Below are positions 19,078 through 43,228 of a stretch of DNA of 43,228 nt, piece after piece. Under the pieces are notes generated by a model. The model saw only the letters and a list, made by a program, of their open reading frames with translations. It was not told the origin of the DNA and did no database searches. This stretch comes from Neptuniibacter sp. UBA6509 (GTDB lineage Bacteria; Pseudomonadota; Gammaproteobacteria; Pseudomonadales; Balneatricaceae), in NCBI GenBank assembly GCA_002435145.1, contig DJLT01000031.1, positions 1 to 43,228 on the forward strand, written 5' to 3'. Position numbers and translations under genes: made by a program. The number at the start of each line of letters is the position of its first letter. The stretch's first letter is position 1.

Positions 19078-19088
19078 AGAAAAAACTT
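19060..19088 (-). terminator. T-rich end after RNase P RNA
   Basis: Just beyond the P1 helix the minus strand reads AAGTTTTTTCTC and then CTATTTTTTC. The P1 helix plus these T-runs could serve as an intrinsic termination signal for rnpB. No separate strong hairpin is seen. Confidence 0.45.
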
Positions 19089-19442
19089 GAGGAGTTTGCC
19101 GATAAGCCGGGTTCTGTCGTGGACAATCATTCATCTGGGATACGCATTGCTACGCACCTCAAGCAACCTACCCGGTTCCAGCGCGGGTCACGCCTGTAGG
19201 AACCCTATTTGGTCTTGCTCCGAGTGGGGTTTACCATGCCGTGGAATGTTGCCACCCACGCGGTGCGCTCTTACCGCACCATTTCAACCTTACCGTTATG
19301 CCGAAGCATACTTAGGCGGTGTATTTTCTGCTGCACTTTCCGTCGACTCGCGCCGCCCAGACGTTATCTGGCACTCTACCCTTTGGAGCCCGGACTTTCC
19401 TCCATCCTTTTACAAGGACAGCGACTGCCTGGCAAACTCCTC
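19089..19442 (-). ncRNA. rnpB: RNase P RNA (type A)
   Basis: This is the catalytic RNA of RNase P, which matures tRNA 5' ends. On the minus strand it shows the conserved core GAGGAAAGTCCGGGCTCC near the 5' end and AGAGCGCACCGC in the middle. The 3' part AGATGAATGATTGTCCACGA is followed by ACAGAACCCGGCTTATCGGC. The ends are set by a perfect 12-bp P1 helix between 19431-19442 and 19089-19100. Total about 354 nt, normal for a type A RNA. It lies directly after rsmI, as in Pseudomonas. Small open frames over it are shadows. Confidence 0.97.
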
Positions 19443-41656: not shown

Positions 41657-42055
41657 ATGGTGCTAAGCATCTACGGAAAAAAAATACAGTATGTTATCTG
41701 GCTAATATTCATATGCAGTTTGGTAGCACTTGCCTACGGACTCTTCAGGCAACTACCACCTGAAAGGATATTTGAAAATTCAGATAAGGTAGGGCACTTT
41801 TTGGCCTTTCTCGTTGTCCCTTTTACGGGAAGACTGGCACTACATCAGCTAAAAAGCATGATTTATTGGTCAATATGGCTCATCCTAGCTATAGCGCTGG
41901 AGTACCTTCAAGGCGAGTTCCGCCCCCAAAGACACTTTTCCATAGCTGATGCCTACGCCAACGCATTAGGAGTCATAACAGCCATAGGATGTTCCGCCCT
42001 ATTAAATCAACACATAGAAAAAAACAGGGCTAAACAGCAGGGCCCTACCGGGTAG
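41657..42055 (+). CDS. VanZ-like family membrane protein
   Basis: The 132-residue product has about four hydrophobic segments (about 11-30, 44-60, 68-84, 100-118) and the family pattern NSDKVGHFLAFLVVPFTG (about 41-58), then ALEYLQGEFRPQRHFSIADAYANALGV (about 79-105). The latter matches the E-x-x-Q ... R-x-F-s-x-x-D-x-x-a-N signature of VanZ-like proteins in Gram-negative polysaccharide clusters. Biochemical function is unknown. It follows the dehydrogenase-like gene by 31 bases and its 3' end overlaps the convergent SH3 gene by 11 bases. Confidence 0.82.
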   Translation: MVLSIYGKKIQYVIWLIFICSLVALAYGLFRQLPPERIFENSDKVGHFLAFLVVPFTGRLALHQLKSMIYWSIWLILAIALEYLQGEFRPQRHFSIADAYANALGVITAIGCSALLNQHIEKNRAKQQGPTG

Positions 42056-42665
42056 TAATCAACCCACAACGGTGTCCTTCAACAGTCACCTCAGTCAATT
42101 GATAGGTGAGATCCGCCTTCATTAAAATATGCATAGACAACACCTCATTAGGAGTTAAAGCAACGTGCTCTAAGGTCTGATTAACAGGAACAGGAATTAA
42201 CTTACCCTCCTGAGTTTTAGCGACCAGTTCTGCACTACAGTTCACTTTGACCTTCTGCAAATTCTGGCTCATTGCAACAGCATACTGCAAATGCAGGTCA
42301 CAACCTTGAATATACTCATCACCAATCACTCTTTCGCAACTTAAGGATACCCCCTTATCAAGCAAGCGAAGCTCTTTGCTGACTAAGCTATCCTGCACAA
42401 CCTTCTCAGGAGAGAGAAACTGACTACTCATCCACCCCTCAGTACGACCACTGGCATCCTCATGCCCAAGAAAGTAGATTTTAGTCCAATCACCTTTTTC
42501 CCCATCCTTTATAACAAGATGCCCCTTGTTTAGCATAAGTATACTCCGCCCCTCAGTACTTGGCTCAGCACGGACCCGCACACTGTCGGCAGTCACCAGC
42601 AAATATTCTACAGCTTGTGCATTGACTGAAAGCAACATTAATAAAAACAAAAAAAATCTAGCCAC
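42045..42665 (-). CDS. Secreted bacterial SH3-domain protein of unknown function
   Basis: The 206-residue product has a Sec signal (MARFFLFLLMLLSVNAQA) and an SH3b domain (about 20-88: YLLVTADSVRVRAEPSTEGRSILMLNKGHL then DWTKIYFLGHEDASGRTEGWMSSQFL). The C-terminal part (about 95-206) has four cysteines (SCER, GCDL, NCSA, HRCG) that could form two disulfides in the periplasm. I recognise no family for this C-terminal part. It is a single gene, convergent with and overlapping the VanZ-like gene, and its promoter side faces the GGA-hairpin region. Confidence 0.75.
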   Translation of the reverse strand: MARFFLFLLMLLSVNAQAVEYLLVTADSVRVRAEPSTEGRSILMLNKGHLVIKDGEKGDWTKIYFLGHEDASGRTEGWMSSQFLSPEKVVQDSLVSKELRLLDKGVSLSCERVIGDEYIQGCDLHLQYAVAMSQNLQKVKVNCSAELVAKTQEGKLIPVPVNQTLEHVALTPNEVLSMHILMKADLTYQLTEVTVEGHRCGLITTR

Positions 42666-42791
42666 AACTATCCCTATAAACTTATTTGATTAGTGATATG
42701 TAATAATTTTTATTATCAAAATACAAGATGATAATGAATATATCTAGAAAATATAAAATTAGGAATTTTTCTTATATACCCAACTACTTAA

Positions 42792-42797
42792 TAGAAT
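42792..42797 (+). promoter_or_regulatory. Possible -10 element upstream of the GGA-hairpin RNA
   Basis: TAGAAT lies 20 bases before the first GGA stem-loop. A -35 at 17-base spacing (TTCTTA) is weak, and I see no convincing TGTAAG-N6-CTTACA GacA-type box upstream. Tentative. Confidence 0.3.
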
Positions 42798-42805
42798 TAA
42801 TATGC

Positions 42806-42905
42806 CTGCACAGAGTGAGTCATGGACGACTCTTTAGCCCTCAGGATGAGGGCCTCTGTACCTAACATCAGGATGATGCCGTGTCAGCAAGGATGCTGAT
42901 AGAAC
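42806..42905 (+). ncRNA. Candidate CsrA/RsmA-sequestering small RNA (CsrB/RsmZ-like)
   Basis: Four successive stem-loops each present GGA in the loop on the plus strand. 42817-42832 is GAGTC-ATGGAC-GACTC. 42837-42853 is GCCCTC-AGGAT-GAGGGC. 42866-42878 is CATC-AGGAT-GATG. 42882-42901 is TGTCAGC-AAGGAT-GCTGATA with one G-U pair. The loops fit the ANGGA recognition sequence of CsrA/RsmA dimers, and such tandem GGA hairpins define CsrB, CsrC, RsmY and RsmZ. On the other strand the loops read TCC and would not fit. RNA ends are unknown: no clear terminator follows directly. The alternative is a family of intergenic AGGAT palindromes unrelated to CsrA. Confidence 0.6.
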
Positions 42906-42911
42906 AGTCTA

Positions 42912-42949
42912 AGTATAGTAAATATTGCTTTCAAATTAGGCACTATACT
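42912..42949. repeat. 8-bp inverted repeat downstream of the GGA hairpins
   Basis: AGTATAGT (42912-42919) and ACTATACT (42942-42949) are perfect inverted copies with 22 bases between. It could close the 3' part of the candidate small RNA or be an independent operator. No T-tract follows on either strand. Confidence 0.4.
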
Positions 42950-43228
42950 CTACGCCTCTCACGCTAGATCCCTATAAGCTTAAACATCACAGCCTCTTAA
43001 CATCGCAGCTTAATGCTTGCCCTCAGCCCCCTTCTTCGTCCGCATTATTGACCTTTGAGGCCATAAAAGCTTACCGAGTTTATTCCGGCCAGCTAAGACA
43101 AATAATGCGATTAAAAATTATAATACTTAGGAAAATTTAGTACTTAGCCCTTCTAAGCAGCCCTTTTCAGATAGATCTTTCCCCCGAAGCCAAAACGAAA
43201 CCCAAAACGAAAAAACCCCGGTCACGAA
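42950..43228. other. Gene-free right end of the window
   Basis: I find no supportable protein frame or tRNA here. It holds a perfect 9-bp inverted repeat, CGCATTATT (43041-43049) with AATAATGCG (43101-43109), 51 bases apart. There is also a direct repeat of TACTTAG near 43124 and 43141. At the extreme right, on the minus strand, CCGGGG is followed by TTTTTTCG (43221-43208), which looks like the second half of an intrinsic terminator whose first half lies beyond the window. If so, a minus-strand gene ends just outside. Confidence 0.4.

Follow-up and report, generated by a model that had tools for sequence, protein, structure and literature searches.

A probable CsrA-sequestering RNA of the CsrB/RsmZ type in Neptuniibacter, with an unusual upstream box and many copies in some relatives

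Introduction

RsmZ of Pseudomonas fluorescens, as described in PMC4005645, is an RNA of 127 nt with four stem-loops and a terminator. In the same account, an ANGGAX hexaloop on a stem is the high-affinity form of the CsrA site and a loop without the N is a weaker one. The CsrA dimer is described there as having two RNA-binding sites, and CsrA also binds GGA motifs in mRNA leaders (PMC4005645). The site of the regulator UvrY is given as TGTAAG-N6-CTTACA (PMC4682653). Multiple Csr RNAs are known elsewhere, for example through the csrB duplication described for Vibrio (PMC6262261). Pf1 of Pseudoalteromonas and CsrR1/CsrR2 of Alcanivorax were predicted with InvenireSRNA and other evidence, as described in PMC9927453 and PMC9788540.

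Plain sequence search cannot keep pace with the evolution of Csr/Rsm RNAs, which can therefore stay hidden in whole bacterial families. Here we analyse contig 42 of the 3.88-Mb draft genome of Neptuniibacter sp. UBA6509, a stretch of 43,228 nt that we call the window. The NCBI family of Neptuniibacter is Oceanospirillaceae; its GTDB family is one that we take to be named Nitrincolaceae. Our search of the open-licence literature found no paper linking Neptuniibacter or Marinobacterium to CsrA and, among the matches listed, no report of RNAs of the window type. The preliminary description of this DNA had proposed a CsrB/RsmZ-type RNA near the end of the contig. That reading is supported by covarying stems, kept GGA loops, the lack of a dispersed repeat in the own genome and the presence of csrA in the host.

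Results

Four GGA hairpins on one strand

Four consecutive hairpins with GGA in the loop are found on the plus strand. H1 (42817-42832, GAGUC-AUGGAC-GACUC) has 5 bp and the hexaloop AUGGAC, and H2 (42837-42853, GCCCUC-AGGAU-GAGGGC) has 6 bp and the pentaloop AGGAU. The weakest stem is that of H3 (42866-42878, CAUC-AGGAU-GAUG), with 4 bp and again the pentaloop AGGAU. H4 (42884-42899, UCAGC-AAGGAU-GCUGA) has 5 bp and the hexaloop AAGGAU, or 6 bp when an A-U pair is counted, and its stem reaches 8 bp with the flanking pairs of the RNAfold drawing. All four had been listed in the preliminary description, with coordinates and stem lengths that hold within about one pair; the list omitted a fifth, outer helix. 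In this helix, drawn by RNAfold on the same strand, ACAGAG (42810-42815) pairs with CUCUGU (42854-42859) and encloses H1 and H2. The best RNAfold structure is without H3, and the folding energy is unremarkable (z -1.8 and -1.7). The core of the candidate CsrA-sponge RNA, which is the conserved unit of our covariance model R1, spans 42808-42902 on the plus strand. Open reading frames of at least 20 codons that overlap 42806-42905 comprise 45, 25 and 28 codons on the plus strand and 23 codons on the minus strand.

For the chance test a hairpin was counted when a perfect stem of 4 bp or more carried a loop of the form ANGGAN or AGGAN. By this rule the whole window holds five hairpins on the plus strand, four of them in the cluster at 42817-42899, and one on the minus strand. 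When the window was dinucleotide-shuffled 200 times and both strands were scanned (400 strands), the mean was 1.1 GGA hairpins per strand and the largest number 7; at most two fell within 100 nt, compared with four within 83 nt in the real cluster. The clustering of GGA hairpins is real and beyond chance.

The Rfam models for CsrB, CsrC, RsmX, RsmY and RsmZ had been proposed as a check, and here the expectation failed: in the window, at gathering level and at E values up to 5, neither these nor any other family matched over the hairpins. Other Rfam matches in the window were set aside, namely RNase P elsewhere and a eukaryotic snoRNA that is a chance match. The RNase P RNA, of bacterial class A, lies at 19087-19440 on the minus strand. 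In 20 related loci no family of the CsrB/CsrC/Rsm kind was found at gathering level. A search with RF00166 in 12 relatives gave one hit below the cut-off (G001), which overlaps the 3' end of a frame read as proQ and was dropped.

Compensatory changes around kept loops

Alignment A6 drew on 42 loci and holds 58 copies, fitted to a covariance model and so leaning towards structure. Repeats and near-repeats were left out of it (L012, L032, L033, L037, L039, L059, L065, L071 and others), as were L025 with a large insert, the unconvincing L044-L046 and the weak L057 and L058. Standard pairs fill 90.0% of the 1438 cells of A6, and two-sided changes occur in 25 of the 27 base pairs. The covariation score of 0.569 falls to at most 0.098 once the partners are slid by 1-3 columns. 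For the outer helix, two-sided changes are found in 6/6 pairs and 95.1% of the cells are paired; H3, with 66.4% of its cells paired, is a weak helix.

Because A6 leans towards structure, unfitted MAFFT alignments were also counted. Alignment A5 has 32 copies and was restricted to H4, since in it the outer helix and H2 slip out of register from one subgroup to another. H4 gave a covariation of 0.299 there, against at most 0.124 after sliding, and one of five measures was reached by 16 of 500 shuffles. In a genus-only MAFFT alignment (six sequences, five distinct) three helices together gave 0.228 against at most 0.078; H2 is invariant in it, and further pair types number 6, compared with 6.6 in shuffles.

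In copies chosen by a model that favours GGA, this motif is kept in H1 and H4 in 58/58 and in each of H2 and H3 in 50/58; 45 of the 58 keep it in all four loops. The compensatory look of the stems around unchanged loops, first seen in the window alone, thus extends across genera as covariation around conserved GGA and is weakest at H3.

Relatives and copy number

A blastn search with 221 bases found matches in five of 57 genomes, the own genome included, all within the genus. Neptuniibacter marinus (G004), a marine species, has a closely related RNA at L075. Six sequences from five genus genomes went into covariance model R1; it scores 103.1 bits in the own genome, whose window sequence is part of its training set. 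With R1, homologues were found in 5 of 16 genera and 14 of 116 family genomes, a number that includes the five source genomes. Model R2 was rebuilt from 54 matches, in which overlapping loci are counted twice (for example L015/L016, L022/L030 and L023/L031). At E ≤ 0.001 it matches in 9 of the 11 genus genomes. Across the order, with strict filters, 16 of 390 searched genomes match R2, ten of them in genus g42 of a second family (f27), and most genomes have no match. Three R2 hits, in G006 (E 0.08), in G007 (E 0.29) and a second one in G002 (E 0.475), were unconvincing by eye and are uncounted. An exact pattern designed on the hits found nine stretches among 84,980 species genomes, all in Neptuniibacter, Nitrincola and Marinobacterium. 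No match was found in the phage records searched.

The own genome has one match to the window-type RNA. Per genome we find from one to at least ten copies, all lower bounds, with at most 36 candidates per genome scored with R1 and at most 10 in the R2 search of the order. The complete genome G396 of family f27 carries at least ten dispersed copies, some identical in score, and an eleventh at L047:1121-1209. Nitrincola tibetensis (G115) has at least seven with R1 and an eighth at L018:2440-2530. In genus g12, four to six window-type RNAs stand in tandem at a single locus.

The surroundings of these copies vary. In arrays of the g12 type, L023 (G134), L022 (G135), L024 (G133) and L026 (G132), the copies are mostly 140-330 bp apart, and several copies in L022-L024 and L026 show by eye GGGCTC...GAGCCC-T terminators with GGA in the loop. 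At the G396 loci L047, L059, L065, L068 and L071 the TAGGA box described below is absent in all five; one of the five includes 5S and 23S rRNA, and a match to the cspA thermosensor lies in one. Two Nitrincola copies also adjoin an rRNA operon.

A palindromic box upstream of the RNA

A palindromic box, TAGGAATTTTTCTTA, lies at 42760-42774 on the plus strand, its centre 41 nt upstream of the RNA core, and is a candidate activator site. It is the sole match to TARGA-N5-TCYTA in the 43-kb window, where 0.27 would be expected; at least one match arose in 24 of 100 shuffles. Among 70 copies, some of them near-identical, 33 have the box with its centre 41-48 nt upstream of the core, one of these 33 with a shortened right half. 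Such boxes are present for 11/11 copies of Neptuniibacter, 14/14 of genus g11 (Nitrincola), 7/18 of the g12 arrays and the one copy of G014. They are absent from all four copies of Marinobacterium litorale and M. stanieri (G029 and G077), from 21/21 copies of f27 and from the one copy of G151. The box is therefore confined to a part of the lineage.

About 33 nt downstream of the box centre, the hexamer TAATAT (42798-42803, plus strand) is -10-like, as judged from its position and by eye; relatives have CATAAT or TATTCT there. Our promoter scan did not list TAATAT at 42798-42803. With up to three mismatches, TGTAAG-N6-CTTACA has no match in 42187-43151, and 13 matches in the window compared with 20 expected. 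A Legionella LetA site was also considered but found no confirmation in passages of PMC5928044. At one further locus, L117 (G010:C5:1320995), the box stands upstream of an apparent start codon with a GGA-rich ribosome-binding site, and it may thus control a protein gene as well.

Longer sister RNAs under the same kind of box

A stricter box pattern gave 20 matches in 8 of the 11 genus genomes and none for the reversed control. Six of the 20 belong to window-type RNAs already found. For the remaining 14 it was predicted beforehand that GGA-rich RNAs would follow them, and 11 of them, in eight genus genomes, precede GGA-rich longer RNA genes; the other three are without a GGA-rich RNA. These longer RNAs have 9-12 GGA in 195 nt, and each of the 11 ends in a hairpin that has a GGA loop and 8 or more pairs. 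By eye, at least four T follow this hairpin in 6/11; a scripted T-tract rule passed 3/11, its stem search having swallowed the T's. Each of the eight loci with longer RNAs has a TPP riboswitch match. The best Rfam result for them was RsmY at one locus, far below threshold (25.9 and 23.0 bits against 57).

In the own genome, contig 71 (G000:C71, L109:510-970) carries a tandem pair of longer RNAs, with 11 and 9 GGA, beside a TPP riboswitch. The first RNA of this pair has a folding z of -4.1, and L109 has no Rfam match of the CsrB/Rsm kind. R2 gave no match in the longer-RNA loci L109, L110 and L113-L115, which were included in the A6 search, so that this model does not recognise the two RNA types as one. 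In Nitrincola (L018:2440-2688 and L029:1156-1401) a window-type copy is found beside the TPP riboswitch, the place of the longer RNA type in Neptuniibacter, and both types may go back to one ancestral locus.

CsrA and a candidate regulator

Two csrA genes of the own genome score above the cut-off. A csrA match is found in all 12 genomes searched, and in 11 of them it is above the cut-off. By their loops, H1 and H4 would be sites of the high-affinity form and H2 and H3 of the weaker form; H1 and H4 are also the two hairpins with GGA in every aligned copy.

None of 114 family genomes has a match above the cut-off to the UvrY/GacA model NF007018. All three genomes from other families of the order pass it, and at the other-family loci L082 and L084 the UvrY/GacA gene adjoins a frame read as uvrC. 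The best own hit to NF007018, at about 190 bits well short of the cut-off at 280, is a response regulator on contig 28, about 6 kb from uvrC. It is 50% identical to a regulator of the family genus g14 and 43% identical to a genus g2 regulator sited beside frames read as pgsA and uvrC. Its similarity to true UvrY, 152 bits, is hardly above the 149 bits of another own regulator, and orthology to GacA is therefore unproven. The contig-28 regulator is the natural candidate for a diverged GacA, with a hypothetical link to the box. In the flanks of the genus loci L095, L097 and L100 and of the own uvrC, a partly masked stretch, no GacA-like gene was seen next to uvrC.

For the partner kinase the BarA model NF008318 was tried and rejected, since 0/57 genomes, other families included, passed its cut-off and the model is thus not discriminating. 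All 11 genus genomes have a hit to it at E ≤ 1e-120, the own match covering about positions 4-811 of 920. The own BarA-like kinase was not relied on, for it has no Pfam Hpt hit and its gene neighbours appear unusual for barA.

Neighbourhood and alternative explanations

Upstream and divergent from the RNA lies a gene for an SH3-domain protein (Pfam SH3_3, 42045-42665, minus strand). A homologous frame stands beside the RNA by eye in G002 and, as two short frames, in G008. The preliminary description had pointed to genes for polysaccharide supply beside the RNA. Sugar-nucleotide genes (galU, pgi and a nucleotide-sugar dehydrogenase) are indeed present, but they carry little weight as evidence, because such RNAs act in trans. 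No intrinsic terminator was found downstream of the window copy, and the contig ends 323 nt after 42905, which bounds the view of any longer transcript. Some other copies have hairpin-T ends by eye, for example L040-L043 and the g12 arrays.

That the hairpins are a 5' leader through which bound CsrA regulates a downstream mRNA in cis, and not a free sponge, would agree with the binding of CsrA to leader GGA motifs described in PMC4005645, with the missing terminator directly after the hairpins and with the nearby contig end. However, between the hairpins and that end the plus strand has one frame of 30 codons and otherwise just shorter or overlapping frames. Moreover, the gene downstream of the RNA in G002 is convergent to it, which argues against an mRNA leader there, and in the tandem arrays it is the next copy that follows, several times with a hairpin-T terminator between. 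We consider a leader highly unlikely. Could the palindromes instead be a mobile repeat family of the REP or MITE kind, with GGA loops by accident? The at least ten dispersed copies in G396, some with identical scores, and the rRNA operons beside one of five G396 loci and two Nitrincola copies speak for it. Many dispersed copies had also been named in advance as the mark of a repeat. In the own genome there is a single copy, which is no dispersed repeat; other members of the lineage do have multiple dispersed copies, yet their stems differ with compensation while the loops are kept, and in the window's lineage the promoter box stays at a near-fixed distance. A repeat family is very improbable indeed. 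Finally, the GGA loops might serve another RNA-binding protein, or pair with mRNAs, and CsrA binding of the window RNA is itself a prediction; but the loops fit the CsrA/RsmE rules as given in PMC4005645, and both csrA genes score above the cut-off, so we give this role almost no weight.

Discussion

We regard it as very likely that the interval encodes a CsrB/RsmZ-type, CsrA-sequestering RNA made from a box-driven promoter. The hairpins, their covariation, the box, the sister RNA genes and the csrA genes are found in these genomes, and from their sequences we infer transcription, CsrA binding, an activator and a physiological effect. On this sponge-RNA reading, the interval would give rise to a small RNA, at least about 100 nt long, that sequesters CsrA. 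The TAGGA-N5-TCYTA box, centred 41 nt upstream of the core, would overlap the -35 region, and a LuxR-type response regulator probably must therefore switch the promoter on. In the transcript the four GGA hairpins would form, two of them enclosed by the outer helix, with H1 and H4 as strong and H2 and H3 as weaker sites. With two RNA-binding sites on each CsrA dimer, a single RNA could accommodate as many as two dimers. Sequestration of CsrA would free CsrA-repressed mRNAs, and the window RNA would act beside the two longer GGA-rich RNAs that stand in tandem in this genome under a box of the same type.

Because none of the 114 family genomes passes the UvrY/GacA cut-off, the altered box may be read by a GacA-like regulator that has diverged. 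We tentatively suggest a wider reading, slightly less likely than not, in which the Csr switch was rewired in the family of Neptuniibacter, Nitrincola and Marinobacterium. A diverged GacA-like regulator would read TAGGA-N5-TCYTA, overlapping -35, and not TGTAAG-N6-CTTACA. It would drive an expanded repertoire of CsrA sponges that come in two structural types and stand in tandem arrays, with several copies to a genome.

A covariance model combined with a promoter box thus recovers a Csr-type RNA lineage that is missing from Rfam and has from one to at least ten copies per genome. Two matters become testable: how, within a global switch, a regulator evolves together with its binding site, and what leads some lineages to multiply their CsrA sponges.

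Very probably, the window RNA is a member of a functional class already known, yet of an RNA lineage absent from Rfam, with an unusual control sequence and many copies in some relatives. Like RsmZ, RsmY and RsmX of Pseudomonas, it is short, has several ANGGA or AGGA hairpin loops and is presumed to sequester CsrA/RsmA; unlike them, it has no Rfam match, a different upstream box and no visible terminator. The design of CsrB and CsrC of enterobacteria and Vibrio is resembled by the longer sister RNAs, with 9-12 GGA and a 3' hairpin with a GGA loop. The window RNA itself differs from CsrB/CsrC in having only four GGA, no Rfam CsrB/CsrC match and no UvrY site nearby. Pseudoalteromonas Pf1 and Alcanivorax CsrR1/CsrR2 are likewise Csr RNAs of marine gammaproteobacteria, and Pf1 is set apart, as far as its description goes, by a GacA-type site and 21 GGA, in contrast to the TAGGA-N5-TCYTA box found here.
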